From: Streptomyces noursei ATCC 11455 | Lineage (GTDB): Bacteria; Actinomycetota; Actinomycetes; Streptomycetales; Streptomycetaceae | Assembly (NCBI RefSeq): GCF_001704275.1 | Contig: NZ_CP011533.1 | Coordinates: forward strand, 5,332,001 to 5,396,000 | DNA length: 64,000 nucleotides | Direction of reading: 5' to 3' | Part shown: in pieces, positions 1,993-48,070 of the stretch | Position numbering within the stretch: the stretch's first letter is position 1 | How the letters are laid out: every line of letters begins with the position of its first letter | Made by a program: the position numbers and the translations under genes | The notes under the pieces: model-generated | What the model was told of the DNA's origin: nothing | Databases searched by the model: none | Seen by the model: the letters and a program-made list of their open reading frames with translations, nothing else

Positions 1993-2007
1993 CTGACGCA
2001 TAGTCAG
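1993..2007. promoter_or_regulatory. Palindromic operator site 1
   Basis: CTGACGCATAGTCAG matches CTGAC-N5-GTCAG exactly. It is 64 bp upstream of the acyl-CoA synthetase start (minus strand). A second copy lies 24 bp further upstream (centre to centre), so two regulator dimers could bind side by side. Confidence 0.75.
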
Positions 2008-2016
2008 ATTACTGAA

Positions 2017-2031
2017 CTGACGTCATGTCAG
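2017..2031. promoter_or_regulatory. Palindromic operator site 2
   Basis: CTGACGTCATGTCAG, an exact CTGAC-N5-GTCAG palindrome in the divergent region between the acyl-CoA synthetase (minus) and the DUF35 gene (plus). Confidence 0.75.
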
Positions 2032-2059
2032 GAATGGGTGTGCGCGGTAAAGCTTCGCG

Positions 2060-2102
2060 GCGGCGGACGGCGGACGGCGGACGGCGGGTGGCGGGTGGCG
2101 GG
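2060..2102. repeat. Short 7-bp tandem repeat
   Basis: About six copies of a CGGCGGA/TGGCGGG heptamer lie in the 275-bp divergent intergenic region. A similar GGCCGGT heptamer run (four copies) occurs at 3213-3242. Probably slippage-generated; no function evident. Confidence 0.6.
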
Positions 2103-2154
2103 CCGTAGGGGCGGAGCGCCCGCCCTCTTGCGCCCGCATCGCCGATGAGTTGAA

Positions 2155-2169
2155 CTGACGTACCGTCAG
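2155..2169. promoter_or_regulatory. Palindromic operator site 3
   Basis: CTGACGTACCGTCAG, exact consensus, ending 34 bp before the start codon of the DUF35 gene on the plus strand. Confidence 0.8.
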
Positions 2170-2203
2170 GACATGTCGGGGCGTCGATGGGGGTGCTGTA
2201 CGC

Positions 2204-2656
2204 ATGGGGGTGCGGTTCGATCTGCCGGAGGTGGACGCCTTCACCCGGCCGTACTGGGCGGCGGCGGCCGAAGGGCGGCTGCTGCTGCGCCGGTGCCGGG
2301 CCGAGGGGTGCGGCGCGGCGCACCACTATCCGCGCGAGTTCTGCCCGCGCTGCTGGAGCGAGGACGTCGTCTGGGAGCCGGCCGGCGGCCGCGCCACCCT
2401 CTACACCTGGTCCGTCGTGCACCGCAACGACCTCCCGCCCTTCGGCGACCGCGTCCCCTACGTCGCGGCGGTCGTCGAACTCGCCGAAGGGCCCCGGATG
2501 ATGACCGAGGTGACGGACTGCGCGGAGGCGGACCTGCGGATCGGAATGCCGCTCGCGGTGCACTTCCGCACCGCGCCGGCGCAGCGGTCCGGCGGCGGTC
2601 CGGCGGTGGACGGCGAGGGCGCCGGGTTCGCGACAGCGGTGTTCCGGCCGGCCTGA
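2204..2656 (+). CDS. Zn-ribbon OB-fold protein, DUF35 family (ChsH2/acyl-CoA-binding type)
   Basis: A 150-residue protein with the DUF35 architecture: an N-terminal helix (FTRPYWAAAAEGRLLLRRC), a zinc-ribbon (cysteines around residues 31-51, ending FCPRCW), then an OB-fold (TLYTWSVVHRNDLPPF). DUF35 proteins pair with thiolase-like Ltp proteins or MaoC hydratases; in cholesterol side-chain degradation the ChsH2 DUF35 domain activates the Ltp2 aldolase. The nearest such partner is the thiolase-like gene at 4278-5468, two genes away on the other strand. The start is the ATG 34 bp after operator 3. No strong Shine-Dalgarno is visible, so the leader may be very short. Confidence 0.82.
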   Translation: MGVRFDLPEVDAFTRPYWAAAAEGRLLLRRCRAEGCGAAHHYPREFCPRCWSEDVVWEPAGGRATLYTWSVVHRNDLPPFGDRVPYVAAVVELAEGPRMMTEVTDCAEADLRIGMPLAVHFRTAPAQRSGGGPAVDGEGAGFATAVFRPA

Positions 2657-2720
2657 AGGCCCCGGGTGCCGCTGACAAATAGAGTGGCGGCCCGGGTCAT
2701 GCGCACGGGAGGCTTTCCCG

Positions 2721-4277: not shown

Positions 4278-5468
4278 CTACCCCGCCCCCAGCACCACCG
4301 TCCCCGACGAGCAGAACCAGCCGCCGGTGCCGGAGGCGACGGCCAGTTGCGGCAGGGCGCCGCCCGGCTTGCGGACCTGGCGGTCCGGGCCGGCCTCGCC
4401 GCGGAGTTGGCGGACCGCCTCGACCAGCAGGAACAGTCCCCGCATACCGGGGTGGCAGGCGGCCAGCCCGCCGCCATCGGTGTTGACCGGGAGTTCGCCG
4501 TCCCGCAGCAGCCGCCCCTTCTCGACGAAGGCGCCGCCCTCCCCCTTGGCGCAGAAGCCCAGGTCCTCCAGCGTCACCAGGGTCATGTAGGTGAAGGCGT
4601 CGTAGATCTCGGCGAGGTCGATCTCGGCGGGGCGGACGCCGGCGCGCTGGAAGGCGAGCCGGCCGGAGACGGCGGCGGGGGAGACGGTGAAGTCGTCCCA
4701 CTCCGACATCGTGGTGTGCGAGACGGCGGTGCCCGAGCCGAGCACCCAGACCGGGCGTTTGGCGAGGTCGGGCACGCGGTCCTCGGCGACGAGCAGCACC
4801 GCGCAGCCGCCGTCGGAGCGGATGCAGCAGTGCAGTTTGGTGAACGGGTCGGCGATCATCGGCCCGGACAGCACCTCGTCCACGGTGATCGGCTCGCGGT
4901 ACATGGCGTCCGGGTTGCCGGCCGCGTTGGCGCGCGCCTGGACGGCTACCTGGGCCAGCTGTTCCAGGGTGGTCCCGTACTGGTGCTGATGGCGGCGCGC
5001 GGCCATGGCGTACTTGGCGATCAGGCTGTGCCCGTAGGGGACTTCGAACTGGAGCGGGCCGCGGGCGCCGAAGGAGAGGTTGGCGGTGCGGCGCCCGGCC
5101 TTGATGTCGGCGCGGGCGGTGGAGCCGTAGACCAGGAGGACGGCGTTCGCGTGCCCGGCCGCGATCGCGTCGGCGGCGTGCGCGGCCATCACCTCCCAGG
5201 TGGCCCCGCCGACCGCGGTGGAGTCCACCCAGGTGGGGCGCAGCCCCAGGTATTCCGCGACCTCGACGGGGGCGAGGGTGCCGAGGCCGGCCGAGGCGAA
5301 GCCGTCGATCACCGACCGGTCGAGCCCGGAGTCGACGAGGGCCCGGCGGGCGGCCTGGGCGTGCAGGGCGTACGGGGTGGCCTCGTCCACCCGCCCGCAG
5401 TCGGAGAGTGCGACTCCGGCGACGGCGACCTTGCGTTGTCCGGCGGGGGTCCCTGACGTCAGCGACAT
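4278..5468 (-). CDS. Thiolase-like lipid-transfer protein (Ltp/SCP-x thiolase family)
   Basis: A 396-residue thiolase-fold protein of the acetyl-CoA acetyltransferase/lipid-transfer group. It has the family's pattern: VAVAGVALSDCGR near the N-terminus, a substrate loop STAVGGATWEVMAAHAADAI, EIYDAFTYMTLVTLEDLGFCAKGEGG, and a NTDGGGLAACHPGM C-terminal motif. The usual nucleophilic Cys position in the N-terminal loop appears to be Gly/Ala (AVGGATW), so it may be an Ltp2-like retro-aldolase rather than a true thiolase. Start: ATG 5468, with operator 4 only 4 bp upstream. The gene is divergent from the acyl-CoA dehydrogenase. Confidence 0.82.
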   Translation of the reverse strand: MSLTSGTPAGQRKVAVAGVALSDCGRVDEATPYALHAQAARRALVDSGLDRSVIDGFASAGLGTLAPVEVAEYLGLRPTWVDSTAVGGATWEVMAAHAADAIAAGHANAVLLVYGSTARADIKAGRRTANLSFGARGPLQFEVPYGHSLIAKYAMAARRHQHQYGTTLEQLAQVAVQARANAAGNPDAMYREPITVDEVLSGPMIADPFTKLHCCIRSDGGCAVLLVAEDRVPDLAKRPVWVLGSGTAVSHTTMSEWDDFTVSPAAVSGRLAFQRAGVRPAEIDLAEIYDAFTYMTLVTLEDLGFCAKGEGGAFVEKGRLLRDGELPVNTDGGGLAACHPGMRGLFLLVEAVRQLRGEAGPDRQVRKPGGALPQLAVASGTGGWFCSSGTVVLGAG

Positions 5469-5472
5469 GAAT

Positions 5473-5487
5473 CTGACGGTACATCAG
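5473..5487. promoter_or_regulatory. Palindromic operator site 4
   Basis: CTGACGGTACATCAG, one mismatch from CTGAC-N5-GTCAG. It directly abuts the ATG of the thiolase-like gene (minus), where a bound repressor would cover the initiation region. Confidence 0.7.
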
Positions 5488-5555: not shown

Positions 5556-5570
5556 ATGACGGGCCGTCAG
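5556..5570. promoter_or_regulatory. Palindromic operator site 5
   Basis: ATGACGGGCCGTCAG; the inner 13 bases TGACGGGCCGTCA are a perfect palindrome around one central base. It lies 56 bp before the acyl-CoA dehydrogenase start. Confidence 0.75.
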
Positions 5571-5626: not shown

Positions 5627-6964
5627 ATGGATGCCGCGTTCACCGAGGAGCAGGACGAGATCCGCCGCACCCTGCGCACACTGCTGGACAAGCGCTGCGG
5701 CCCGGACGAGGTCAGGGCGGCGGTCCGCACCCCGGCGGGCTACGACGAGGCGCTGTGGCGGCGGCTCGCCGAACAGCTCGGACTGCCCGGCCTGGCCCTG
5801 CCCGCGGCGTACGGCGGGGCCGGCTGCGGCCCCACCGAACTCGCCCTGGCCTGCGAGGAGACCGGCCGCACCGTCCTCCCGGCGCCGCTGATCGGCACCG
5901 CGGTGCTCGCCGCCCCGCTGATCCTGGCGCTGGGCGGGGAGCGCCGGCGCGCCGAGCTGCTGCCCGCCCTCGCGGCCGGGGAGTCGACCGCCGCGCTCGT
6001 CGTGCCGGGCGGGCGACTGGGCACCGCGCTGGCGCTGACCGGGCCCAACGAAGGCGACTGGGCCGGCGGCGGCCGGGCCGGCGGGATCCAGGCACGGTGG
6101 TCACAGGAGCACGGGGCGCTGCCGCCGAAGGGCGGGGGCGAGCCACGGGCCGGCGGCGGCTGGCGCCTCTACGGGGAGGCCGAGCAGGTCCTGGGCGGGC
6201 ACACCGCGGACGTGCTGGTGGTCGCCGCGCACGCCGGCGGCTTCGCGCGCAGCCGCACCCTGCTCTTCACCGTGCGGGCCAAGGGGCCGGACGGCGCCGA
6301 GACGCCCGGACTGCTGCGCACCCGGCAGACCGCGATGGACGAGACCCGGCCGCAGGCCCGCATCGAACTCCGGGACGTGGCGGCCGAGTTGCTGGGCGAG
6401 GACCCCTCGGGGGGTGACGGTGCGACGGACGCGGTGGCCGCGGCGCTGGCCGCCACCGGGGCGACGGCCGCCGCGTGCCTGGCGGCCGAGGCGGTCGGCG
6501 CGGCCGACGCGGCGCTGTCCCGTACGGTCGGCCACGTCAAGGAGCGCACCCAGTTCGGCCGGCCGATCGGCTCTTTCCAGGCAGTGCAGCACCGGCTCGC
6601 CGACCTGTACGTGGCGGTGCAGGCGGCGCGTTCGGCGGCGTACTACGCGGCCTGGGCGGCGGGCGGCGGGCGCGCCGTCACCGAGCCCGGGGTGGGCGCG
6701 CTGGCGCTGGCGCAGGCGCTGGAGGCGCTGCGCGCGGTGGCCGCCGAGGCGGTGCAGCTGCACGGCGGCATCGGCTTCACTTGGGAGCACGCGGCGCACC
6801 TCTACTTCAAGCGGGCGGCCTGTGACGAGTTGCTGCTGGGGCCGGTGCACCGGCTGCGGGCCCGGGCGGCCGAGCAGGCCGGGCTGTTCGCGTCCGGGGA
6901 CGGGGACGGGGCGGATGCGGGCGCCCTCGTCGGCCCGGCGGTGCGCGCGGCGGTCGGCGCCTGA
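5627..6964 (+). CDS. Acyl-CoA dehydrogenase
   Basis: A 445-residue FAD enzyme that introduces a double bond into an acyl-CoA. It shows the ACAD N-terminal helical domain (FTEEQDEIRRTLRTLL), the C-terminal RTQFGRPIGSFQAVQHRLADL motif (around residue 306) and LHGGIGFTWEH (around 377). The start ATG 5627 follows GGGAGGAG at the right spacing. The middle β-domain carries a 29-codon in-frame insertion flanked by 13-bp direct repeats (see 6061-6160), giving a Gly-rich loop. Its stop codon overlaps the ATG of the next gene (TGATG), implying translational coupling to an F420-type protein. Operator 5 lies upstream. Confidence 0.88.
   Translation: MDAAFTEEQDEIRRTLRTLLDKRCGPDEVRAAVRTPAGYDEALWRRLAEQLGLPGLALPAAYGGAGCGPTELALACEETGRTVLPAPLIGTAVLAAPLILALGGERRRAELLPALAAGESTAALVVPGGRLGTALALTGPNEGDWAGGGRAGGIQARWSQEHGALPPKGGGEPRAGGGWRLYGEAEQVLGGHTADVLVVAAHAGGFARSRTLLFTVRAKGPDGAETPGLLRTRQTAMDETRPQARIELRDVAAELLGEDPSGGDGATDAVAAALAATGATAAACLAAEAVGAADAALSRTVGHVKERTQFGRPIGSFQAVQHRLADLYVAVQAARSAAYYAAWAAGGGRAVTEPGVGALALAQALEALRAVAAEAVQLHGGIGFTWEHAAHLYFKRAACDELLLGPVHRLRARAAEQAGLFASGDGDGADAGALVGPAVRAAVGA
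6061..6160 (+). repeat. 13-bp direct repeats flanking an 87-bp in-frame insertion
   Basis: GGCCGGCGGCGGC occurs at 6061-6073 and again at 6148-6160. The DNA between encodes residues with no counterpart expected in acyl-CoA dehydrogenases; removing one repeat unit plus the interior restores GDW…AGGGWRLYGEAEQVL, a normal β-domain reading. The distance, 87 bp, is exactly 29 codons. Confidence 0.6.
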
Positions 6965-7452
6965 TGGCCGGTCGCGCACGGCTGGTGCAGAAGATCTCCT
7001 CGACCCGGGCGTTCGCACGGGTCGCGCCGCACGTCGTCCCCGCGCTGGACCGCGCCGTGCACCGGCTGTCCGGCGGAAGGACACTGCTCAGCACCCGGCT
7101 GCTGCCCGGTGTCGTGCTGACCGCGACCGGTGCCCGCACCGGGCGGCCGCGGCGCACCCCGCTGGCCTGCATGCCGCAGGACGACGGCGGCTGGCTGCTG
7201 ATCGGCAGCAACTTCGGCCGGCCCGGGCATCCGGCCTGGACCGGGAACCTGATGAAGAACCCGGAGGCGGAGGTGAGTTGGCGGGGCCGGGACATTCCGG
7301 TGCGGGCCCGGTTGCTGACGGGGGAGGAGCGCGAACGGGCCTGGCGCGCGGCGGTCGCGTTCTGGCCGCCGTACGCGGCCTATCAGGCCCGGGTGGAACG
7401 GGAGATCCGGCTGTTCCGGCTGGACCGGAGGGATCGGTCGGACCGGCGCTGA
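6964..7452 (+). CDS. Deazaflavin (F420)-dependent nitroreductase family protein
   Basis: A 162-residue protein of the Ddn/DUF385 split-barrel family. The characteristic stretch is LTATGARTGRPRRTPLACMP followed by WLLIGSNFGRPGHPAWTGNLMKNPEAEV, which in Ddn-like proteins binds the F420 deazaflavin. The ATG overlaps the acyl-CoA dehydrogenase stop codon (TGATG), so the two are co-translated. Homologues reduce quinones or enoyl/nitro compounds with F420H2; here it may act on the dehydrogenase product or recycle electrons, which is inference. fbiC, needed for F420, lies 31 kb away. Confidence 0.85.
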   Translation: MAGRARLVQKISSTRAFARVAPHVVPALDRAVHRLSGGRTLLSTRLLPGVVLTATGARTGRPRRTPLACMPQDDGGWLLIGSNFGRPGHPAWTGNLMKNPEAEVSWRGRDIPVRARLLTGEERERAWRAAVAFWPPYAAYQARVEREIRLFRLDRRDRSDRR

Positions 7453-7759: not shown

Positions 7760-8407
7760 CTACTTGGTGGGCTTCTTGCCGGTGATGCCGAAGTGCACCA
7801 GCAGTGCCAGGTTGGGCTTGAGCTCGGCCTGCTTGACGCCCCAGCTCTGGAAGCCCTTCTGGTGGCCGGCGACCGCCGCCAGCATCGCGACGATGGAGCC
7901 GGCCATGGCCGCCGCGCTCACGTCCTTGTCGACCTTGTTCTTGGCCTGGAGCTCCTGGATCGACTCCGTAAGGGAGTTGGTGACCGCGTTGAGGATCTTC
8001 ATGCGGAGCTTGTAGAACCGCTTGTCGCCCTCGGCGGCGCCCAGGTCGACGACGCGCAGGATCGCGTCGTGCTTGCGCCAGAAGGAGAGGAAGCCGTCGA
8101 CCAGTTCCTCGGCGGCCTGCCATCCGGACTTGCCCACCCAGGAACGCTCGGCGACCAGATCGGTCAGGCTTGCGCCCTCTTTCGCCATCTCTTCGGCGAT
8201 TTCGAGGACCGCGCCTTCCACATCCGGGAAGTACTGATAGAACGTCGCGGGTGAAGTGCCCGCTTTTCGGGCCACATCGATGACTTTGACGTCCCGATAG
8301 GGGGACGAACTGAGCATTTCACTGAGGCAGTCGAGAAGCTTTTGCCGCGTCGCCTGTCCGCGGCGGCCGGCAACTCTGCCGTCGACGGTTCGAACTTGTC
8401 CTGTCAT
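7760..8407 (-). CDS. TetR-family transcriptional regulator; candidate regulator of the CTGAC-N5-GTCAG regulon
   Basis: A 215-residue regulator. The N-terminal helix-turn-helix reads TRQKLLDCLSEMLSSSPYRDVKVIDVARKAGTSPATFYQYF (roughly residues 20-62), the canonical TetR DNA-binding domain; the rest is a helical ligand-binding/dimer domain. It sits next to the regulon's genes and upstream of afsK. A one-mismatch copy of the operator (8401-8415) overlaps its start codon, consistent with weak autoregulation. TetR proteins of this size often respond to acyl-CoA or other pathway intermediates. The link to the operators is positional inference only; in related genomes a TetR gene also neighbours afsK, so it might serve another role. 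Confidence 0.85.
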   Translation of the reverse strand: MTGQVRTVDGRVAGRRGQATRQKLLDCLSEMLSSSPYRDVKVIDVARKAGTSPATFYQYFPDVEGAVLEIAEEMAKEGASLTDLVAERSWVGKSGWQAAEELVDGFLSFWRKHDAILRVVDLGAAEGDKRFYKLRMKILNAVTNSLTESIQELQAKNKVDKDVSAAAMAGSIVAMLAAVAGHQKGFQSWGVKQAELKPNLALLVHFGITGKKPTK

Positions 8408-13301: not shown

Positions 13302-14090
13302 TCACCTGACGGGCGGCGGGGCGGCCCCGGTGCCCCGGGGGCGGGTGGTGAACAGCGCGGCCTGGCGGTCCGGCGGCAGGTTGCCGAGCGAGATCAGCTG
13401 CGGGGCGTGCGCCAGCGCCTGCGCCCGGGTCGCCTCCTTGGCGGCCCACAGGGCGCGGACGGTGCCCTGGACGGCCTCGGTGGGCTGCGCGGCCAGGACC
13501 GCGGCGCGGCGCACCGCGGTCTCGGCCGCGGCGCCGGGCGGGGTCAGCTCGGAGACCAGTCCGATGTCGTGGGCGCGCCGGGCGCCGAGCCGCTCCGCGG
13601 TGCCCATCAGGGCGAGCCGGGCGATCTCCCCGTAGGGCATCCGCTGGGCCATGAGGATGGACTCGTAGGCGCTGACCATCCCGTAGGTGGTGTGCGGGTC
13701 GAAGAAGGTGGCGTCGTCGGCGGCGATGATGAACTCCGCCTCGCCCAGCAGGTAGAAGGCGCCGCCGCAGGCCATCCCCTCGACCGCGGCGAGCACCGGT
13801 TTCCACAGGTCGTTGGCCTTCGGGCCGATCCGGAGCAGCGGGTCGTCGAGGGAGTACGGGGAGGACGGCTGGGGCACGTCGGCCGAGCGGTCGAGGCCGG
13901 TGCAGAAGGCGCGACCGCCGGCGCCGGTGAGCACCGCCGCCCGCACGGTGTCGTCGAAGCGGAACTCCCGCCACAGGCCGGCAAGTTCGGCGGCGGTGGC
14001 CAGGTCGAGGGCGTTGTGGCGGTCGGGGCGGTCCAGGGTGACCAGGGCGACCCCGTCGTCGGTCTCGGTGCGGACCCCGGGGGACGTCAC
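13302..14090 (-). CDS. Enoyl-CoA hydratase/isomerase family protein
   Basis: A 262-residue crotonase-fold protein. Visible family motifs: ALVTLDRPDRHNALD at the N-terminus; AAVLTGAGGRAFCTGLDRSAD (oxyanion hole); and AAVEGMACGGAFYLLGEAEFIIAADDATFFDPHTTYGMV (second oxyanion-hole region and catalytic acid area). It hydrates an enoyl-CoA or opens a ring in related pathways. It is last in a three-gene minus-strand operon: thiolase, DUF35, hydratase. Its GTG start overlaps the DUF35 stop by four bases (GTGA), implying translational coupling. The operon is headed by operator 6. Confidence 0.87.
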   Translation of the reverse strand: MTSPGVRTETDDGVALVTLDRPDRHNALDLATAAELAGLWREFRFDDTVRAAVLTGAGGRAFCTGLDRSADVPQPSSPYSLDDPLLRIGPKANDLWKPVLAAVEGMACGGAFYLLGEAEFIIAADDATFFDPHTTYGMVSAYESILMAQRMPYGEIARLALMGTAERLGARRAHDIGLVSELTPPGAAAETAVRRAAVLAAQPTEAVQGTVRALWAAKEATRAQALAHAPQLISLGNLPPDRQAALFTTRPRGTGAAPPPVR

Positions 14091-14635
14091 GGCCGCTCCA
14101 GGACCCAGCGGGGGACGGTCGGCCCGCCGGGCAGGGCGTGGAAGACCGCCTTCACCGGGGCGCCGATGCGCAGCCGGGCCGGGTCCACGGAGTTCAGGGC
14201 GGCGTCGGGGGCGGCGACGAGGTTGCCGACCAGCCGGATCCGCGGGGCCTCGGTGAGCTCCACGATGATCGCGTTGTAGGGGGCCTGGGCGGCGTAGGCG
14301 GGCAGCAGCGGCGGGTGCGGCAGGACGTAGGACCAGATCCGGCCGCGGCCGCTCATCCGCTGCCAGTGGGCGGCGAACGACTGGCAGTGCGGGCAGCAGG
14401 GGCGGGGCGGGAAGCGCGGTTCGTCGCAGTCGGAGCAGGTCTGCACGCGGAGTTCGCCGCGGGCCGCGTACTCCCAGAACGGGGCCCCGTCGTCGTCGGG
14501 GACGGGCAGCAGCAGGTCGGCGCTGGGGTCGGGGGGAGTGTCGGTGGCGGGTGGCAGGCTTGTGTTCATGGCATCACGGACGGTCATGGATTCGGTCCCG
14601 GCGGTGGTTCCGCGCGGGGAGCGCTCTGCGCGCAT
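14087..14635 (-). CDS. Zn-ribbon OB-fold protein, DUF35 family
   Basis: A DUF35 protein of up to 182 residues. The zinc ribbon is C-x2-C … C-x2-C (VQTCSDCDEPRFPPRPCCPHC), followed by an OB-fold (GRIWSYVLPHPPLLPAYAAQAPYNAIIVEL). Directly downstream of a thiolase-like gene, the classical Ltp-DUF35 pairing, in which the DUF35 protein is required for the thiolase-fold partner's retro-aldol or thiolytic activity. Start uncertain: ATG 14635 has GAGGAG 10 bp upstream, inside the thiolase stop region; ATG 14587 or 14572 would remove a poorly conserved leader. Confidence 0.83.
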   Translation of the reverse strand: MRAERSPRGTTAGTESMTVRDAMNTSLPPATDTPPDPSADLLLPVPDDDGAPFWEYAARGELRVQTCSDCDEPRFPPRPCCPHCQSFAAHWQRMSGRGRIWSYVLPHPPLLPAYAAQAPYNAIIVELTEAPRIRLVGNLVAAPDAALNSVDPARLRIGAPVKAVFHALPGGPTVPRWVLERP

Positions 14636-14641: not shown

Positions 14642-15793
14642 TCAACTCCTCAGCAGCAGTGCGGAGGTGGGCACGCCCTCGCCCGCGGTGACGAGGCAGG
14701 TGGCGGCGTCCGGGACCTGTGCGGTGCTGGTGCCGCGCAGCTGCCGGACGCCTTCGGTGATGAGGTTGAAGCCGTGCACATACGCCTCGGAGAGGCCGCC
14801 GCCACCGGTGTTGAGGGGCAGTCGGCCGCCGATCTCCAGGGCGCCGCCCTCGGTGAAGGCCGCGCCCTCGCCGCGTCCGCAGAAGCCGTAGCCCTCCAGG
14901 GAGAGCGGTATCAGCGGGGTGAAGGCGTCGTAGATCTGCGCCACGTCGATGTCCTGCGGGCCCAGGTCGGCGCCCTTCCAGAGGTGGCGGGCGGCGGTCC
15001 AGGCCGGGCCGGTGAGCGGGTCGTCGTTCCAGTAGTTGACCATGCCGTGGTGCTGGGCGGGCAGGCCCTGCGCGGCGGCGTGGACGTAGACGGGGCGCCG
15101 GCGGCAGTCGCGGGCGCGCCCGGCTGCGACCACGACGCAGGCCAGTGCGCCGTCGGTCTCCAGGCAGTTGTCGAAGAGGCAGAGCGGTTCGCTGATCCAG
15201 CGGGCGGTCATGTACATCTCGCGGGTCAGCGGGCGGTCGTACATCATCGCGGCCGGGTTCTGGTTGGCGCGGTTGCGGCAGGCGAGGGCGACGTTGAAGA
15301 AGTGGTCGCGGGTGGCGCCGTACTCGTGCATGTAGCGCCGGGCCAGCATGCCGATCTCGTCGGCGGGGCGGAGCAGGCCGAAGGGCCGGGTCCACTGTGC
15401 CGGGGTGGGCAGTTGGACGCGGGTGTTGGTCCACGGCCGTGGTCCGGAGCCGCGCTTGCGGGACCGCCAGGCGACGCCGACGCTCGCCTGCCCGGTGGCG
15501 ATCGCGGCGGCCAGGTGTGCCACCGTCGCGCAGGAACCGCCGCCGCCGTAGCCGACCTTGGAGAAGTGCGTGACGTCCCCGGCGCCGATGGACTTGGCGA
15601 TCTCGACCTCGTCGGTCTCCTCCATCGTGTACGAGGCGAAGGCGTCCACCTCGGAGGGGGCGATGCCGGCGTCGTCCAGGGCCGCGACGATCGCCCGGCA
15701 CGCCAAGCGCTTCTCGGATTCCGGAAGGCGTTTGGCAAAGGAGGTCTGTCCGATGCCGACGATCGCCGTAGCGTCCTTGAGGGTCGCCCCCAT
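14642..15793 (-). CDS. Thiolase-like lipid-transfer protein (Ltp family)
   Basis: A 383-residue thiolase-fold protein, second of its kind in the window. Motifs: TAIVGIGQTSFAKRL at the N-terminus; KVGYGGGGSCATVAHLAAAIATG with a Cys at the family's active-site region; IYDAFTPLIPLSLEGYGFCGRGEGAAF; and LPLNTGGGGLSEAYVHGFN. The start ATG 15793 is preceded by GGAGG at 5 bp; a GTG six bases earlier is possible. It heads the operon with DUF35 and enoyl-CoA hydratase, and is divergent from an acyl-CoA ligase with one operator between them. Confidence 0.85.
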   Translation of the reverse strand: MGATLKDATAIVGIGQTSFAKRLPESEKRLACRAIVAALDDAGIAPSEVDAFASYTMEETDEVEIAKSIGAGDVTHFSKVGYGGGGSCATVAHLAAAIATGQASVGVAWRSRKRGSGPRPWTNTRVQLPTPAQWTRPFGLLRPADEIGMLARRYMHEYGATRDHFFNVALACRNRANQNPAAMMYDRPLTREMYMTARWISEPLCLFDNCLETDGALACVVVAAGRARDCRRRPVYVHAAAQGLPAQHHGMVNYWNDDPLTGPAWTAARHLWKGADLGPQDIDVAQIYDAFTPLIPLSLEGYGFCGRGEGAAFTEGGALEIGGRLPLNTGGGGLSEAYVHGFNLITEGVRQLRGTSTAQVPDAATCLVTAGEGVPTSALLLRS

Positions 15794-15847
15794 CGCCACC
15801 TCCGTGGTCGGTCGTCACTGCTGACAGCGGAGGAGGGTACCGCTAAT

Positions 15848-15862
15848 CTGACGGACAGTCAG
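15848..15862. promoter_or_regulatory. Palindromic operator site 6
   Basis: CTGACGGACAGTCAG, exact consensus, placed centrally in the 112-bp divergent region between the thiolase (54 bp away) and the acyl-CoA ligase (43 bp away). One site could control both directions. Confidence 0.82.
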
Positions 15863-15905
15863 CTAGTGCGGAGCGGGGTATTTGCCAGGAGCGGGAGGCA
15901 GTGCG

Positions 15906-17552
15906 ATGGGCGAACGGCTCGATGCGCGGGCGGACTTGGCGTACGGCTCACTGGGCCACCTGGTGCGTGCGGCCGCCGCACGGTACGGCCCCCGGGAGGC
16001 CGTCGTCGAGGGCCGCACCCGGGTGTCCTACGCCGAGCTGGGCGCACGGGTGGAGCGGGCCGCCGCGGCCTGCATCGCCGCCGGGGTCGCCCCTGGCGAC
16101 CGGGTCGCGGTCTGGGCGCCCAACACCCTCGACTGGATCGTCTCCGCCCTCGGCGCGGTGACCTCCGGCGCGATTCTCGTCCCGGTCAACACCCGCTTCA
16201 AGGGCGCCGAGGCGGCCGGCATCCTGCGCCGCACCCGCACCAAGATCCTCTTCGTCACCGGCACCTTCCTCGGCACGTCCTACGTCGCCTCGCTGCGCCG
16301 CGCCGCCGAGCGGGGCGACGGCCGCGGCCCGCTGCCCGGACTGCCGCACCTGGAACAGGTCGTGGTGCTCGCCGACGACGCCCCCGCCGACTTCACCACC
16401 TGGCGCGCCTTCCTCGCCGGCGGCGCGGCGGTGCCGCCCGCCACGGTCCGCGCCCGGACCGACGCCCTCGGCCCCGACGACCCCTCGGACCTCATCTTCA
16501 CCTCCGGCACCACCGGCCACCCCAAGGGCGCCGTGATCACCCACGGCCAGACCCTGCGGGCCTACGCCGTCTGGAGCGCACTGGCCGGCCTGGAGGAGGG
16601 CGACCGCTACCTCATCGTCAACCCCTTCTTCCACACCTTCGGCTACAAGGCCGGCGTCGTCGCCTGCCTGCTGCGCGGCGCCACGATGGTCCCGCAGCCG
16701 GTCTTCAGCGTGGAGACCGCGCTCGCCAACATCGCCGCCGAGGCGATCTCCGTCCTGCCCGGCCCGCCCACCCTGCACCAGCAGCTCCTGGACCACCCCG
16801 ACCGCGCCGCGCACGACCTCTCGGCGCTGCGCCTGGTCGTCACCGGCGCCGCGGTCGTCCCGCTGGAGCTGGTGGAGCGGCTGCGCGGCGAGCTGAAGGT
16901 GGCCACCGTCCTGACGGCCTACGGCCTGTCGGAGAGCACCGGCGTGGTCACCATGTGCCGCCGCGGCGACCCGCCCGAGGTGATCGCGGCGACCTCCGGC
17001 CGCGCCCTGCCGGACACCGAGGTCCGGGTCGTGGACCCCGCCGGCCGCCCGCAGCCGCCCGGCGAGCCCGGTGAGGTCCTGGTCCGCGGCTACCACGTGA
17101 TGTCCGGCTACTTCGAGGACCCGGCCGCCACCGCCCGCGCGATCACCCCCGACGGCTGGCTGCGCACCGGTGACGTCGGCGTCCTCGACCGGGCCGGCAA
17201 CCTCCGCATCACCGACCGCATCAAGGACATGTACATCGTCGGCGGCTTCAACGCCTATCCCGCCGAGATAGAGCAACTCCTCGTGCGCCACCCGGACATC
17301 ACCGAGGTCGCGGTCATCGGCATCCCCGACCGCCGCCTCGGCGAGGTCGGCAAGGCGTACGCGGTCCGCCGCCCCGGCTCCCGGGTCACCGCCGACGACC
17401 TGATCGCCTGGTCCCGCCGCGAGATGGCGAACTACAAGGTGCCCCGGGAGGTGGAGTTCGTCGCGGGACTGCCGCGCAACGCGAGCGGCAAGGTGGTCAA
17501 GGGGCAGCTGCGGCACGGCAGTCCGTGCGCCGAGCGGGACGGGGCGCACTGA
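15906..17552 (+). CDS. AMP-forming acyl-CoA synthetase (FadD3/FadD17-like ANL family)
   Basis: A 548-residue adenylate-forming ligase that activates a carboxylic acid as acyl-CoA. P-loop LIFTSGTTGHPKGAVITH (around residue 198), YGLSESTG, the hinge GWLRTGDVG and catalytic Lys in NASGKVVKGQLR (around residue 528) are all present. The start ATG 15906 follows GGGAGG. It is divergent from the thiolase operon and shares operator 6. Its stop codon is directly followed by the remains of an unrelated DUF4232 gene, marking a recombination junction. Confidence 0.9.
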   Translation: MGERLDARADLAYGSLGHLVRAAAARYGPREAVVEGRTRVSYAELGARVERAAAACIAAGVAPGDRVAVWAPNTLDWIVSALGAVTSGAILVPVNTRFKGAEAAGILRRTRTKILFVTGTFLGTSYVASLRRAAERGDGRGPLPGLPHLEQVVVLADDAPADFTTWRAFLAGGAAVPPATVRARTDALGPDDPSDLIFTSGTTGHPKGAVITHGQTLRAYAVWSALAGLEEGDRYLIVNPFFHTFGYKAGVVACLLRGATMVPQPVFSVETALANIAAEAISVLPGPPTLHQQLLDHPDRAAHDLSALRLVVTGAAVVPLELVERLRGELKVATVLTAYGLSESTGVVTMCRRGDPPEVIAATSGRALPDTEVRVVDPAGRPQPPGEPGEVLVRGYHVMSGYFEDPAATARAITPDGWLRTGDVGVLDRAGNLRITDRIKDMYIVGGFNAYPAEIEQLLVRHPDITEVAVIGIPDRRLGEVGKAYAVRRPGSRVTADDLIAWSRREMANYKVPREVEFVAGLPRNASGKVVKGQLRHGSPCAERDGAH

Positions 17553-17986: not shown

Positions 17987-18020
17987 GCGCGGCGCCTCAC
18001 CGTGCGCGGCGCCTCACCGT
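17987..18020. repeat. Perfect 17-bp tandem duplication at the LLM stop codon
   Basis: GCGCGGCGCCTCACCGT occurs twice in direct succession. Each copy contains TCA, the minus-strand TGA stop; the second copy (18014-18016) is the functional stop of the LLM gene. A recent slippage duplication is likely. Confidence 0.75.
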
Positions 18021-18949
18021 GCGACGTGGCCGCCGGCGACCCCGGTCCGCTCCGCCAGCGCCCGCATCCGGTCCGCGAACCCGCCGTCCGCCGACCCGAA
18101 CCACACCCCGAGGTCCGCCGCGCCCGCCGCCTCCCACTCCGCGACCTCGGCGGCCACGTCCGCCACCGTGCGGTCCGGGCCGTCCCAGCCGATCCGGGTG
18201 CCGGCCGTCACCCGGGTCCCCCGCTCCGCGGCCCGCCGGGCCAACTCCGCCGCCCGCGGCGCGAACTGCCCGGGGGTGAGCCCCACCCCCTGCCAGTGGC
18301 CGCCGAACTCCGCGGCGCGCCGCAGCGCCGCGTCCGAGTTCCCGCCGATCAGGAACGGCACCGGCTCCCGCGGCACCGGTTCGAACACCGCCCGGCCGTC
18401 GAAGGCCACCTGCCCGTCCTCGTAGGGCCCGCCCGCTCCCGTGTGCAGATGCCGCACCAGCCGCAGCGTCCGGTCCGTCCGCGCACCCCGGTCGCCGAAG
18501 CCGACGCCGGCCGCCGCGAACTCGTACGGATGCCAGCCCACGCCGACGCCCAGCACGAACCGGCCGCCGCTCAGCCGCGCCAGCGTCGCCGACTGCCGGG
18601 CCAGCAGCAGCGGTTCGCGCAGCGGCGCGATCAGCACCGACGTCCCCAGCGTGATCCGTTCGGTCGCGGCGGCCAGGTAGGCGAGCGTGGTCAACGCCTC
18701 GTACACCCCGCCGTAGCCCTCCGGCGGACGCCCGTACGGGCCCGGCGGCAGCAGGTGGTCCGGCAGCCAGACCCCCGCGTACCCCAGTTCCTCGGCCTCC
18801 CGGGCCAGCCGCACCAGCTCCTGGGCGGGCATCGTGCCCGCTTCGGACGGCAGGACGACGTGCAGCCGCATCCGGTCCGGCCGCCCGGCGGCCGTGCCGG
18901 GGACGGCGGGGTGGGCGGTGGGGTGCTGCGTGGTGACGGCGTCGCTCAT
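18014..18949 (-). CDS. LLM-class flavin/F420-dependent oxidoreductase
   Basis: A 311-residue TIM-barrel protein of the luciferase-like monooxygenase family. Diagnostic stretches: LAREAEELGYAGVWLPDHLLPP, LAAATERITLGTSVLIAPLREPLLLARQSATLARLSGGRFVLGVGVGWHPYEF and VPFLIGGNSDAALRRAAEFGGHW. TIGR-type actinobacterial members use F420 rather than FMN, not decidable here. The start ATG 18949 follows GGAGG. No operator copy lies upstream, unlike the neighbouring ligase, so it may be controlled separately. Confidence 0.85.
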   Translation of the reverse strand: MSDAVTTQHPTAHPAVPGTAAGRPDRMRLHVVLPSEAGTMPAQELVRLAREAEELGYAGVWLPDHLLPPGPYGRPPEGYGGVYEALTTLAYLAAATERITLGTSVLIAPLREPLLLARQSATLARLSGGRFVLGVGVGWHPYEFAAAGVGFGDRGARTDRTLRLVRHLHTGAGGPYEDGQVAFDGRAVFEPVPREPVPFLIGGNSDAALRRAAEFGGHWQGVGLTPGQFAPRAAELARRAAERGTRVTAGTRIGWDGPDRTVADVAAEVAEWEAAGAADLGVWFGSADGGFADRMRALAERTGVAGGHVAR

Positions 18950-19116: not shown

Positions 19117-20733
19117 TCAGTGAGGACTCCCGGGCGCCCCGGAACCCGTCGGTGCGCCCGGCGCGCGTCCGTAGCGCTCCCGCAGCGCCGTCTTGCGCAC
19201 CTTGTTCAGGGGGCCGCCGCGCGGCAGCACCTCGACGATCTCCAGCTGCTCCGGCAGCTTCTGCGTCATCAGCCCGGCGGCCCGCAGATGCGCGGTGAGG
19301 TCGGCCAGGGTGAGCCGGGGGGCCTCCGCCCCGTCCGCCGACCCGGCGAGCGCGACCACCGCGCAGACCCGCTCCCCCCGCTCCCGGTCCGGCAGCCCGA
19401 TCACCGCCGCCTCCGCAACCGCCGGATGGGTGTGCACCAGGTCCTCGATCTCCTGGGCGGAGATGTTCTCGCCCTTCCTGATGATGATGTCCTTCAGCCG
19501 CCCGGTCAGCACCAGATGCCCGTCGGCGCGCAGGTGCCCCAGATCGCCGGTCCGGAACCAGCCGTCCGCGGTGAACGCCTCGGCCGTCAGCGCCGGATCG
19601 GTGTACCGCCGGAACACCATCGGCCCCGAGACCGTCACCTCGCCGGTCCCACCGGTCGCCACCGCGCTCCCGTCCGCCCGGACGATCCGCACCCGCGCGC
19701 CCGCCACCGGCCTGCCGACCGTGTGCGCCAGCTGCTCGTCCGTGTCGTACGGCGTCCCCATCGCGATCATCGGAGACTCGGTCATGCCGTAGCCGTGCAC
19801 GATCGCGCAGCCCAACTCCCGCCCGGCCGCCCGGTACAGCTCGGGCGGCAGCGGCGCGCCGCCGCCGGACAGCAGCCGCAGCGAGGGGATCAGGGGGCCG
19901 GCGTCCGGCGCGGCCGCCCGGCGGCGCCGCGATGCGTCGTGGAACGCCTGGTAGAAGGCGGTGCTGCCGCCCGCCATGGTCACCCCGTGGCGGCGGTAGA
20001 CCTCGGCCGCCCGGTCCGCGTCGAACGCCTCCAGCACGACCGCCGGAAACCCGCTGACCAGCATGGCGATGACGTAGTCCGGCCCGGCGACGTGCGCGTA
20101 CGGGAAGGCGATCGAGCCGATGTCGTCGGCCGACATGCCCAGCGCGGTGGCCAGCCCCACCCCGCCCGCGATGAGCGAGGCGTCGGTGTGCTCGACGCCC
20201 TTGGGTGCGGAGGTCGTCCCGGACGTGTAGTAGACCCAGCGCGTGCGCTCGTCGTCCCCTTCCGGGGCGGTCGGCAACCCGCCCGGATCCCCGTCCGGCA
20301 GCCCGTCCGCCAACGGGACCACCCGCACGTCGGTGCGCTCCCCGACCGCGTCGCGCACCATCGCCGTGAAGTCGAACCCCCGCCACACCCCGGGCACGAG
20401 GACGAACTCCGCCGCCGACTCCGCCAGCACGAACCCGACCTCCCGGGCCCGGTGCAGCGGGATCACCGGGGTCTGCACGGCCCCGAGCCGGGCCAGCGCC
20501 AGCGACGCGATCACCGTGTCGATGCGCGTCGGCAGCTGCCACATCACCCGCGTCCCGGCCCCGATCCCCAACTCCCGGAATCCGGCCGCCGCGCGCAGCG
20601 CCGCGTCCCGCACCTCGCCGAAGGTCACGGCCCGCCCGCCGTCCCCGTCGTAGAACATCGGCGCGCCCCCGGAGGCCCGCGCCCGGTACTCGACCAGTTC
20701 CCACAACGTGTGTATACGAGCGTCTTCGAACAC
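19117..20733 (-). CDS. AMP-forming acyl-CoA synthetase / feruloyl-CoA-synthetase-like
   Basis: A 538-residue ANL ligase. P-loop YYTSGTTSAPKGVEHT (near residue 168), HGYGMTESP, GWFRTGDLGHLRADGHLVLTGRLKDIIIRKGENIS (hinge and A8 region) and PLNKVRKTALRER with the catalytic Lys at the end. I place the start at GTG 20733 behind AGGAGG; the open frame continues upstream but without coding character. Operator 7 is 53 bp upstream. The third acyl-activating enzyme of the window; substrate unknown. Confidence 0.88.
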   Translation of the reverse strand: MFEDARIHTLWELVEYRARASGGAPMFYDGDGGRAVTFGEVRDAALRAAAGFRELGIGAGTRVMWQLPTRIDTVIASLALARLGAVQTPVIPLHRAREVGFVLAESAAEFVLVPGVWRGFDFTAMVRDAVGERTDVRVVPLADGLPDGDPGGLPTAPEGDDERTRWVYYTSGTTSAPKGVEHTDASLIAGGVGLATALGMSADDIGSIAFPYAHVAGPDYVIAMLVSGFPAVVLEAFDADRAAEVYRRHGVTMAGGSTAFYQAFHDASRRRRAAAPDAGPLIPSLRLLSGGGAPLPPELYRAAGRELGCAIVHGYGMTESPMIAMGTPYDTDEQLAHTVGRPVAGARVRIVRADGSAVATGGTGEVTVSGPMVFRRYTDPALTAEAFTADGWFRTGDLGHLRADGHLVLTGRLKDIIIRKGENISAQEIEDLVHTHPAVAEAAVIGLPDRERGERVCAVVALAGSADGAEAPRLTLADLTAHLRAAGLMTQKLPEQLEIVEVLPRGGPLNKVRKTALRERYGRAPGAPTGSGAPGSPH

Positions 20734-45021: not shown

Positions 45022-45807
45022 CTACCGCATCAGCTCGCCCGCGTTCACCAGCAGCGACTGCCCCGTGATGGCCCGCGCCCGGTCCGAGGCGAGGAAGACC
45101 GCCGCCTCCGCCACGTCCGCGTCCGTCGCCAGCTCCGGCAGCGCCATCCGCCCGGTGAGCCGCCCCAGCACCTCGGCCTCCGGCACCCCCTCGGTCCGCG
45201 CCGTGTGCCGGACGTACCCGGCCACCGGCGGGCCCCACATCCAGCCCGGCTGCACGGTGTTGACCCGGATCCGGTCCGGTCCCAGCTCCCGCGCCAGCGA
45301 GTACATCGCCGACACCAGCCCGCCCTTGGACGCCGCGTACGCCGCCTGCCGCACCTGCGAGGGCGCGGCCACCGACGACTGGGTGCCGATCATCACCACC
45401 GAGCCGCCGCCGCGCGCCGTCATCGCCGGCAGACAGGCACGGGTCATCCGCAGCGTGCCGAAGAGATTGACGTCCACCACCCGCTGCCAGGCGTCGAAGT
45501 CCGCGTCCCGCAGGCCGCCGAAGTGGCCGTCCAGCGCGGCGACATGGATCACCGCGTCGATCCCGCCGAACCGCTCCACGGCCAGCCCGGCCAGCGCCGC
45601 GCACTGCGCCTCGTCGGCGATGTCGGTCACCCGCCAGGCCGTCCGGTCGCCCGAGGTGTCGATCCGGCCCGCCGTCGCCGCGAGGTTCGCCTCGGTGCGC
45701 GCACCGAGCACCACCCGCGCGCCGTCCCGTACGCAGGCCGCCGCGACCTGGTGCCCCAGCCCGGCGCCGACGCCGGAGACGATGACGGTCTTGTCGCGCA
45801 GCAGCAT
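45022..45807 (-). CDS. Short-chain dehydrogenase/reductase
   Basis: A 261-residue classical SDR. Cofactor motif VIVSGVGAGLGHQVAAACVRDGARVVLGART (NADP-type Arg after β2); DAVIHVAALDG at the NNAG position; catalytic Ser in MIGTQSSVA; YAASKGGLVSAM with Tyr-x3-Lys near residue 157; and VQPGWMWGP. Operator 12 lies 34 bp upstream, so it is a distant member of the same regulon, 12 kb from the main run. It likely reduces a ketone or oxidises an alcohol in the same pathway (inference). Confidence 0.88.
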   Translation of the reverse strand: MLLRDKTVIVSGVGAGLGHQVAAACVRDGARVVLGARTEANLAATAGRIDTSGDRTAWRVTDIADEAQCAALAGLAVERFGGIDAVIHVAALDGHFGGLRDADFDAWQRVVDVNLFGTLRMTRACLPAMTARGGGSVVMIGTQSSVAAPSQVRQAAYAASKGGLVSAMYSLARELGPDRIRVNTVQPGWMWGPPVAGYVRHTARTEGVPEAEVLGRLTGRMALPELATDADVAEAAVFLASDRARAITGQSLLVNAGELMR

Positions 45808-45841
45808 GCGGCACCCTCCTGCCGTCCGGACCGACCGACAT

Positions 45842-45856
45842 CTGACGCAACGTCAG
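45842..45856. promoter_or_regulatory. Palindromic operator site 12
   Basis: CTGACGCAACGTCAG, exact consensus, 34 bp upstream of the SDR start (minus strand). The identical 15-mer occurs at 48056-48070. Confidence 0.83.
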
Positions 45857-45936
45857 ATCGGTGGTGGGTGGTCAGGGTAGGCGCGGCCGACGAGGAGGGG
45901 AAGGCCGGCGCACACAGGGGTGGCCGGCCCCGCGCC

Positions 45937-46542
45937 TCACTCCCAGGGCGACGCCTCGGTCGCCTCGAAGCAGTACTTGACCCACGAGCGCGAGCGGTTG
46001 GGGCTGGTCGTGGGCACCGCGCAGAACCGCACCCGGAAGGCGTCGCCCACCGACGCCATCGGCGTGAACACGTCGTGGTGGGAGGCGATGAAGGCGCTGT
46101 GGGACGCACCGCCCGTCACGCTCACCGTCACCGAGTCCCCGACCGTCCCCGCCACGATCCGCGCCCAGACGGCACCGCACCGCCTGCTGTACCGCAGGTG
46201 CAGGCGGACCGGGTTGCCCACCGCCGGCTCGAAGGTCGCCGCCTCCACCCCGCACCCGGTGGACTGCGGGTCCTTGCCCTCGCAGCCCGCTCCCGGGCAA
46301 CGGGGCGGCGGGTCCTGGTAGAGCTTGGGCAGCTGGTCGACGGCGAACGTGGCGAGCGCGCCCACGACGGAGGTCGCCACGCCCACCACCAGGGCGTGCC
46401 GGGCGTGCGCGCGCAGCCAGCGCCCGGCGCCGCGCAGCCGCCAGCCGACGTCGCGCAGCCGGGCCCGCAGCCGCCGGGGGAGAGAGGGGGACGGGGGAGT
46501 CGGGGGATCCGCCGGATCCCGCACATCGGGGCCACTGGTCAT
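45937..46542 (-). CDS. DUF2690-domain membrane-anchored protein
   Basis: A 201-residue protein: basic cytoplasmic N-terminus (RRLRARLRDVGWRLRGAGRWLRAH), one membrane helix (ALVVGVATSVVGALATFAV), then an extracytoplasmic DUF2690 domain with the conserved cysteine pattern CPGAGCEGKDPQSTGC and NPVRLHLRYSRRCGAVWARI. The start ATG 46542 follows CCCAGGAGG. Function unknown. Confidence 0.8.
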   Translation of the reverse strand: MTSGPDVRDPADPPTPPSPSLPRRLRARLRDVGWRLRGAGRWLRAHARHALVVGVATSVVGALATFAVDQLPKLYQDPPPRCPGAGCEGKDPQSTGCGVEAATFEPAVGNPVRLHLRYSRRCGAVWARIVAGTVGDSVTVSVTGGASHSAFIASHHDVFTPMASVGDAFRVRFCAVPTTSPNRSRSWVKYCFEATEASPWE

Positions 46543-46567
46543 CCGGCCTCCTGGGAGGTCCTTGGTC

Positions 46568-46601
46568 CATATGCCCGCGGGGCGCGCCCCGCGGGCATAT
46601 G
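46568..46601. terminator. 34-bp perfect palindrome (terminator of the aminotransferase gene)
   Basis: A perfect dyad with arms CATATGCCCGCGGGGCG / CGCCCCGCGGGCATATG and no loop spacer, flanked by GGTC and GTGGACC half-arms. It lies between the aminotransferase stop (46688) and the DUF2690 RBS, suggesting an unusually stable terminator hairpin. Confidence 0.75.
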
Positions 46602-46687
46602 CCGTGGACCTTCCAGTGTCCGGCAGCGCCGGGCCCGAGGGAAGCGGAATTTCCGCCGCCGACAGGCCCGTTGGGCAGCCGCCCGGC

Positions 46688-47911
46688 TTACGCGGCCCGC
46701 CGCGCCGCCGCGATCCCCGCACGCAGCCGCTGCAGCCCCTCGCCGATCTCCGCCGGCCCGTGGGTCACGAACGACAGTCGGATCGCCGCCGGGTCCGGCC
46801 GCCCGGCGAAGAACGGCGCCCCCGGCACGTACGCCACGTCATGCCGCACCACCTCCGCCAGCAGCGCGGTCGCGTCGTACCCCGCCGGCAGCGTCGCCCA
46901 CACGAACATCCCGCCCGCCGGGCGGTTCCAGCGCGAGCCCTCGGGGAGCGCCGCGGGCAGCCCGGCCAGCAGGGCGTCCCGCCGCTCCCGATAGGCGCCG
47001 CGGACCCGCGCCAGGTGCGCGTCCAGGTCCGAGGCCGCCAGGTACCGCGCGGCGGCGGCCTGATCGACGGTCGAGGTGTGCAGATCGGCGGCCTGCTTGG
47101 CGACGACACAGGCCCGCCGCAACCCGGCCGGCGCCCGCAGCGTGCCCAGCCGCAGCCCCGGCGCCATCACCTTGGAGAACGAGCCCAGCAGCACCGTCCG
47201 GTCCTCGGCCCCCGGGAACGACGCGACCCAGCGCTGCGGCTCCCCCTCGAAGCGCAGCTCGCCGTACGGGTCGTCCTCGGCGATCCACAGCCCGCGCCGG
47301 GCGGCGACCTCTGCGACCGCGGCCCGCCGCTCCGCGCTCAGCGTGCGCCCGGTGGGGTTCTGGAACGTCGGGATGACGTAGAGCAGTTTGGGGTTCTCGC
47401 GGGCGGCGACCTCGTCCAGCGCCGCCGGGTCCAGCCCCTCGTCGTCGGTCGGCACCGCCACCACCCGGGCGCCCGCGAGGGAGAAGATCTGCAGCGCCGC
47501 CAGATAGCAGGGGTCCTCGACCAGCACCACGTCGCCCGGCTCCAACAGCGCCGTGGCCAGCAGCGTCAGCCCCTGCTGGGAGCCGGTGGTGATCAGCAGG
47601 TCGTCGGCGTCGGTGGCCAGCCCGCGGGCCGTGGTGCGCGCCGCGACGGCCGCCCGCAGCGCCGGATCGCCCTCGCTGGTGGAGTACTGCAGGACCCGCT
47701 GCGGCGCCTGCGCCAGCACGTCCCGGAAGGCCGCGGATATCCCCTCGGCGTCGAAGAGTTCGGGCGCCGGCAGCCCACCGGCGAACGAGATCACCTCGGG
47801 CCGGGCGGTCAGCGCCAGGATGTCGCGTACGGGCGAGCTGCCGGTCCGGGCCGCCCGCGCGGCGAGCTCGGGGACGGGTGCGGAGACAAGGGGCGGGGCC
47901 TGGTCCGACAT
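46688..47911 (-). CDS. PLP-dependent aminotransferase, class I/II (LysN/2-aminoadipate-like)
   Basis: A 407-residue fold-type-I aminotransferase. N-terminal PVRDILALTARPEVISFAGGLPAPELFD, LITTGSQQGLTLLATALLEPGDVVLVEDPCYLAALQIF, YVIPTFQNPTGRTLS, and catalytic Lys in LGSFSKVMAPGLRLG near residue 245. This subgroup (MocR-like aminotransferase domain without its HTH) includes 2-aminoadipate, valine-pyruvate and multisubstrate aminotransferases. GGAG RBS; start ATG 47911. A TAAC-CATC-GTTA inverted repeat (47940-47951) lies upstream and might be an operator. Confidence 0.87.
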   Translation of the reverse strand: MSDQAPPLVSAPVPELAARAARTGSSPVRDILALTARPEVISFAGGLPAPELFDAEGISAAFRDVLAQAPQRVLQYSTSEGDPALRAAVAARTTARGLATDADDLLITTGSQQGLTLLATALLEPGDVVLVEDPCYLAALQIFSLAGARVVAVPTDDEGLDPAALDEVAARENPKLLYVIPTFQNPTGRTLSAERRAAVAEVAARRGLWIAEDDPYGELRFEGEPQRWVASFPGAEDRTVLLGSFSKVMAPGLRLGTLRAPAGLRRACVVAKQAADLHTSTVDQAAAARYLAASDLDAHLARVRGAYRERRDALLAGLPAALPEGSRWNRPAGGMFVWATLPAGYDATALLAEVVRHDVAYVPGAPFFAGRPDPAAIRLSFVTHGPAEIGEGLQRLRAGIAAARRAA

Positions 47912-48055
47912 GGCAGCTCCAATCGCTCGTACGCTGCGTTAACCATCGTTAGCTGCAGACGCCAGGCAGCTTAGACACTTTTCGGCCAACCGTGCAGGGG
48001 TGTTCGCATACTGGTCCGCCCTTCCGGGATCCGCCCCGTCCCCACCCCTCCACAT

Positions 48056-48070
48056 CTGACGCAACGTCAG
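48056..48070. promoter_or_regulatory. Palindromic operator site 13
   Basis: CTGACGCAACGTCAG, exact consensus, 15 bp before the ATG at 48086. Confidence 0.83.

Follow-up and report, generated by a model that had tools for sequence, protein, structure and literature searches.

Introduction

KstR (Rv3574/MSMEG_6042) is a mycobacterial lipid and cholesterol repressor of the TetR family that is autoregulated and governs a large lipid regulon, with TnnAACnnGTTnnA given as its operator (PMC1995591). In Streptomyces coelicolor, the TetR gene SCO4421 lies close to afsK, is lowered in a whiA mutant and is active in spore chains, and its function was left unclear (PMC3878966). Here we analyse a stretch of Streptomyces noursei ATCC 11455 DNA, hereafter the window (64,000 nucleotides, positions 5332001-5396000 of a single-contig 9.8-Mb genome), in which a palindrome with the core CTGAC-N5-GTCAG recurs in front of genes of acyl-CoA metabolism. 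From the sequence, the TetR-family protein encoded at 7760-8407, which has a predicted EthR-like fold, very likely represses its own gene and an acyl-CoA and F420-linked lipid catabolic cluster through this palindrome.

The locus resembles that described for KstR in that a TetR-family protein has a conserved palindrome in its own promoter and many further intergenic copies, often between divergent genes; judged by sequence, the pattern would be that of the same autoregulated multi-operon lipid regulon. The operators differ, however: the palindrome here is CTGACG-N3-CGTCAG, not the sequence printed for KstR. By analogy, the regulator may thus be like KstR in logic, with another operator. To our knowledge, the C-terminal domain family of KstR also differs from that of the 7760-8407 protein. 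No chain named KstR appeared among the listed sequence or structure matches of the regulator, which excludes nothing. The best match to its predicted fold was EthR of Mycobacterium tuberculosis, at an identity of only 17-21%; EthR has its own operator and its own target, ethA. FasR, FadR and DesT, TetR-family lipid regulators with solved structures, are 13-16% identical to it.

An earlier note on this DNA, made from the letters alone, had proposed that a single TetR-type repressor controls a scattered catabolic system through the palindrome and knew of no named regulator for it. On the latter point our literature search with six forms of the motif string agrees, as it found no paper. Among the papers listed by wider searches none names such a regulator, a search with the Pfam names found none, and one for SCO4421 led to a single paper (PMC3878966).

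Results

Palindromes in the window

We distinguish an exact core (CTGAC-N5-GTCAG, 10 bases) from a strict core (CTGACG-N3-CGTCAG). All 13 copies reported earlier were recovered, nine of them exact and four (5473, 5556, 26732 and 28653) with one mismatch each. Such a spread had been called very unlikely by chance, and the counts bear this out. The window contains nine exact cores, while 300 shuffles gave a mean of 0.087 and a maximum of 2, and six strict cores, where the shuffles gave a mean of 0.007 and a maximum of 1. Set against the remaining genome, the Poisson P is ~3e-10 for the exact and ~3e-9 for the strict core. With up to two mismatches, the window has 42 copies and 37.3 are expected, no excess over chance; two-mismatch sites were therefore dropped from the counts.

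By the gene calls made here, all 13 copies are intergenic and each has a called start nearby downstream. The gap between site and start runs from 4 bp to ~130 bp, depending on the start codon (2173 or 2204; 15882 or 15906; 28781 or 28799); the earlier note gave 4-103 bp. To these copies we add a one-mismatch site over the start codon of the TetR gene (8401-8415). A further four sites, including one exact core, were found in the 20 kb to the left of the window (locus L151). One-mismatch matches at 53650, 54160 and 56065 fall within called genes and were excluded. The genes afsK, afsR and fbiC, whose names agree with their Pfam matches, were rightly said to be without a site: the 500 bp upstream of each contain neither an exact nor a one-mismatch core. 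Pfam and NCBIfam likewise confirm acyl-CoA ligases, thiolase or lipid-transfer proteins with DUF35, acyl-CoA dehydrogenase, amidohydrolase, LLM and short-chain dehydrogenase (SDR) genes behind the sites. The EthD-like label given to the 48086-49000 protein found no support, there being no Pfam or NCBIfam match at 1e-3.

The proposed regulator and its start-codon site

The 7760-8407 protein matches TetR_N (PF00440) with 27.3 bits (cut-off 24) and PF19352 with 246 bits (cut-off 23.9), and its predicted structure is an all-helical TetR fold. All 80 named loci compared have a one-mismatch site in this position over the start codon, and in 78 of them the 22 bases around it do not differ. The 80 loci are the best of 515 confirmed TetR loci, 79 labelled Streptomyces and one Streptosporangium; the closest among them by the TetR protein, at 99% identity, are Streptomyces noursei A-2-1 and, tied with it, Streptomyces sp. 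MspMP-M5. Conservation extends from -55 to +13 of the start: at least 70 of the 80 loci agree at 63 of these 69 positions, and all of them share the codons ACA, GGA and CAA. The site is also kept in eight of eight further Streptomyces picked for few strict cores (0-9 per genome; loci L271-L278 of G277, G234, G153, G285, G089, G133, G243 and G163), and hence in every Streptomyces locus read (window, named loci and low-count genomes). In five of these eight, the 19 kb read contain no second operator. Because the TetR and its start-codon operator are kept where nearby operators are gone, the regulator may serve some purpose besides control of the catabolic cluster.

Of the 79 loci in which AfsK has a match, 78 have an AfsK-like gene as the divergent neighbour of the TetR gene. 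This fits the location of SCO4421 close to afsK, and the 7760-8407 protein is probably its ortholog. Outside Streptomyces, the 300 bp upstream of the TetR match contain a core with no more than one mismatch in each of the six loci read from family f14 (Frankiales-type metagenome-assembled genomes), in each of the six read from family f18 and in G011. Among the five Sporichthyaceae upstream regions, two have a one-mismatch copy as their best and the other three a copy with two mismatches. The recognition helix is kept in the aligned family members. One homolog (P0082) bears the source name 'division inhibitor protein', which was not used as evidence.

Co-occurrence and target classes in other families

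Strict cores were counted and the TetR was sought in 296 Actinomycetes genomes, of which 53 had a match; four weak ones (32-35% identity, 1-3 sites each) were left out, leaving 49. The regulator was found in all 28 Streptomyces genomes of this sample. At least five strict cores are present in 36 of the 49 genomes with a clear ortholog (21 Streptomyces, seven f14, five Sporichthyaceae and three f18) and in two of the 243 without. When Streptomyces is removed, the site density of the 21 other ortholog-bearing genomes is still above that of the 243 (P 3e-11). The co-occurrence includes related genomes, and its P therefore does not describe independent events.

The sites of other families also precede genes. 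A called start lies within 300 bp, often on both sides, for 46 of 51 f14 sites with at most one mismatch, and the same distance holds for 27 of 30 in f18. Sixty f14 target genes were scanned and gave 11 acyl-CoA dehydrogenase, six SDR, five hydratase, five LLM, four DUF35, three aldehyde dehydrogenase and three ligase domains. With the proteins of the window and L151 and one from L164 as queries, 39 of 67 f14 target genes gave a match, compared with 13 of the 89 remaining genes in those loci (P 1e-8).

The start-codon site, the co-occurrence and the f14 target classes thus uphold the earlier proposal as to a single TetR, that at 7760-8407, and its lipid and acyl-CoA targets. What the sequence itself shows is the sites, their position before starts, the conserved start-codon site, the joint occurrence of site and regulator over several families, the same target classes in a second family and the EthR-like predicted fold. 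In the mechanism that we propose, A-N-CTGACG-N3-CGTCAG-N-T would be the operator, and a TetR dimer would cover the core promoters of its own gene and those of the divergent or leading cluster genes and repress them, until a lipid or acyl-CoA intermediate releases it. We infer the binding and the repressive effect, and an acyl-CoA-type ligand because of the target genes and the fold.

Distribution in the genome and form of the predicted operator

The genome contains 66 exact cores: four at the chromosome ends, 10 in the cluster and 52 elsewhere. A genome-wide motif search, proposed in the earlier note as a check, gave a divided answer. All 10 cluster cores lie 5' of genes, while of the 52 remote ones 14 lie 5' of genes, 20 inside genes, seven at gene ends and 11 elsewhere. 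Outside the cluster, the outcome that the earlier note had named as refuting is thus half realised. As most remote cores are not 5' of genes, the bare 10-base core is not specific enough, and we rejected the total genome count as a measure of regulon size, since copies within genes, at gene ends and in other places dominate outside the cluster. Near-matches with at most one mismatch number 211, compared with 22 for a reversed control. The genes behind six of the 14 remote 5' cores, picked by AT-rich flanks and short distance, were scanned; they encode a ligase (L169), a divergent hydratase and ligase (L263), acyl-CoA dehydrogenases (L164 and L174), an LLM protein (L156) and a protein without a Pfam match (L157). 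The adjoining 20 kb on each flank of the cluster contain no strict core, even with one mismatch allowed. The word 'scattered' in the earlier proposal is not supported as worded: most of the regulon is a single cluster of ~60 kb (genome 5320-5380 kb), joined by some remote lipid genes.

In the 80 named loci the operator extends outward, with A at -2 (76%) and A or T at -3 and -4. In Streptomyces, a -10-like TANNNT at -4 from the operator is enriched (155 of 414 oriented promoters), but it overlaps the extended operator and divergent promoters are counted twice, and we do not press it. Exact cores occur in pairs in these loci, 24 bp apart 32 times, 27 bp 11 times and 25 bp twice; the pair at 1993 and 2017 in the window is 24 bp apart. 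This sequence spacing suggests two dimers side by side. Two exact strict cores at each chromosome end (positions 34-73 and 9815812-9815851) are presumably part of terminal palindromes.

Contrary evidence and alternative explanations

Besides the relatedness of the genomes, several results weigh against a lipid regulon under the 7760-8407 TetR. No TetR was found in G150 (10 sites, 68% complete) and G152 (five sites, 93% complete). G022 and G031 carry a 43% homolog and zero strict cores, and no core lies within 300 bp upstream of their TetR match; Streptomyces G277 also has the TetR and zero strict cores. In S. noursei, 38 of the 52 remote exact cores are not 5' of genes, and none of six genes behind remote one-mismatch sites (L166, L177, two in L178, L182 and L184) is lipid-related. 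The f18 targets are not significantly enriched for cluster proteins (7 of 19 compared with 4 of 25, P 0.11). In Sporichthyaceae, none of 14 genes 5' of sites matches regulon proteins, compared with 13 of 169 other genes. These sites are not a lipid regulon, and five of the 36 co-occurring genomes consequently rest on non-lipid sites. Finally, no phenotype was detected for an SCO4421 deletion (PMC3878966). For this regulator adjoining afsK, the present analysis offers a probable function, an operator and a target list, and the targets suggest growth on branched or cyclic lipids, more than sporulation, as a candidate phenotype.

The sites might instead belong to a different dimeric repressor, another TetR or other, of which the 7760-8407 gene is merely a target, since an operator over the regulator's start codon fits a plain target gene too and G277, G234 and G153 keep the TetR and its site with 0-1 strict cores genome-wide. 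A first look at the S. noursei genome gave 84 TetR candidates, of which only 10 were scored, and this leaves room for a paralog; among those scored there was no second match at E <= 1e-20. Site number follows the 7760-8407-type TetR over the 296 genomes, and the site persists at its start where other nearby operators are gone. We consider a different repressor unlikely and retain the 7760-8407 protein as the regulator of the cluster.

The Sporichthyaceae raise a separate question, that of chromosome-wide use of a TetR-type site. Each of the five sampled genomes (G012, G035, G053, G069 and G085; loci L096-L115, L131-L150 and L207-L236) contains 109-218 exact strict cores and 503-764 copies with at most one mismatch, compared with 0-1 and 10-22 for the reversed control. 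In G012, 135 copies are randomly spaced (coefficient of variation 1.00, simulated 0.99), and among 33 copies classified from 30 loci, 13 lie deep within genes, 14 lie at gene ends and six are intergenic; in G085, 15 of 36 classified are deep in genes and nine at gene ends. Many copies in these two genomes are inside genes or include a TGA stop within the palindrome. All five genomes carry the ortholog (43-48% identity), and the aligned members keep the recognition helix. The copies may mean that the same specificity is used chromosome-wide, or they may be an iterated palindrome with no relation to it. SlmA, a nucleoid occlusion factor that interacts with FtsZ, has sites dispersed over the chromosome and thinned near the terminus, and we considered a likeness to it on account of the dispersal and the random spacing in G012. 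An SCO4421-type TetR, or a protein of the same specificity, could be an architectural or division-linked chromosome-wide binder in some lineages and a local repressor in Streptomyces; part of the wider role might be kept there, as the gene is conserved, autoregulated, active in spore chains and retained where catabolic operators were lost. However, binding of the ortholog to the Sporichthyaceae copies is only putative, and f14, which also has the ortholog, shows no such excess (34 copies with at most one mismatch in G109 and 38 in G036, control 10 and 12). Such a double role is improbable by our estimate, and local repression of lipid genes remains our preferred explanation.

RNA hairpins with a 6-bp stem and a 3-base loop that serve as terminators or attenuators are very improbable and were rejected on spacer, arms and position. 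Some copies outside the cluster do lie at gene ends with a TGA stop inside the palindrome, but every window copy is 5' of a gene, and the 80 named loci show the same for 188 of their 195 exact cores. In the window and three other sets read, the strict six-base arms occur solely at spacer 3, and alternative arms made of the same letters were seen no more than once, where hairpins would permit other arms and loops (five-base arms have a few chance copies at other spacers).

Genes of the cluster

Table 1. Predicted operators and called genes of the cluster, in window coordinates.
Feature	Position	Strand	Basis
Acyl-CoA synthetase-like (CoA_binding_2, Succ_CoA_lig, ATP-grasp_5), continues past the window's left end	3..1928	-	Pfam
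Predicted operator, exact core, paired with 2017	1993..2007	.	motif scan
Predicted operator, exact core	2017..2031	.	motif scan
Predicted operator, exact strict core, upstream of DUF35 gene	2155..2169	.	motif scan
DUF35/ChsH2-like OB protein, alternative start 2173	2204..2656	+	Pfam
Thiolase-like protein (Thiolase_C_1)	4278..5468	-	Pfam; NCBIfam match below cut-offs
Predicted operator, 1 mismatch, between divergent thiolase and acyl-CoA dehydrogenase	5473..5487	.	motif scan
Predicted operator, 1 mismatch	5556..5570	.	motif scan
Acyl-CoA dehydrogenase	5627..6964	+	Pfam
F420H2-dependent quinone reductase/nitroreductase family	6964..7452	+	Pfam; NCBIfam above cut-off
TetR-family regulator (PF19352 + TetR_N), proposed repressor, probable SCO4421 ortholog	7760..8407	-	Pfam, AfsK-like neighbour, structure model
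Predicted autoregulatory operator, 1 mismatch, over TetR start codon	8401..8415	.	motif scan, conservation
Enoyl-CoA hydratase	13302..14090	-	Pfam
DUF35/ChsH2-like protein	14087..14635	-	Pfam
Lipid-transfer protein/thiolase (PRK07855, above cut-off)	14642..15799	-	Pfam, NCBIfam
Predicted operator, exact core, between divergent thiolase and ligase	15848..15862	.	motif scan
Acyl-CoA ligase (AMP-binding), alternative start 15906	15882..17552	+	Pfam
F420-dependent LLM oxidoreductase (TIGR03619, above cut-off)	18014..18949	-	Pfam, NCBIfam
Acyl-CoA ligase (AMP-binding)	19117..20733	-	Pfam
Predicted operator, exact strict core	20787..20801	.	motif scan
Predicted operator, exact strict core	25243..25257	.	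motif scan
Amidohydrolase (Amidohydro_2)	25279..26574	+	Pfam
Predicted operator, 1 mismatch	26732..26746	.	motif scan
F420-dependent LLM oxidoreductase (TIGR03619, above cut-off)	26764..27714	+	Pfam, NCBIfam
Short-chain dehydrogenase	27828..28613	+	Pfam
Predicted operator, 1 mismatch	28653..28667	.	motif scan
Predicted operator, exact strict core	28728..28742	.	motif scan
LLM oxidoreductase, alternative start 28781; below TIGR03619 cut-off	28799..29917	+	Pfam, NCBIfam
Amidohydrolase, same strand, downstream of 28799 gene	29986-31725	+	profile scans
Aldehyde dehydrogenase, after amidohydrolase 29986-31725	31722-33236	+	profile scans
Short-chain dehydrogenase	45022..45807	-	Pfam
Predicted operator, exact strict core	45842..45856	.	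motif scan
Predicted operator, exact strict core	48056..48070	.	motif scan
Protein of no recognised family, behind last operator	48086..49000	+	no Pfam match at 1e-3; no NCBIfam match

Besides the two TIGR03619 proteins of Table 1, a third LLM protein (37013-37837), whose gene is without a palindrome site, passes the cut-off of this F420-dependent group, and an fbiC-like radical-SAM protein is encoded at 38907-41462. The cluster would link a programme of lipid catabolism with oxidoreductases that depend on F420. It continues leftwards beyond the window, in L151, with a site between a ligase and a divergent acyl-CoA dehydrogenase and further sites between an SDR and a divergent cyclase and between a flavin reductase and a divergent sigma factor; additional acyl-CoA dehydrogenases and a hydratase are interspersed with these genes. 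Steroid catabolism was considered as a possible pathway, hinted at by the genes for ChsH2/DUF35, lipid-transfer and flavin reductase proteins.

Two sigma-70 family genes (L151:17275-18021 and L177:1634-2533) have one-mismatch sites whose first base is 110 and 114 bp, respectively, from the gene start, and cross-talk through them is possible on the basis of this placement.

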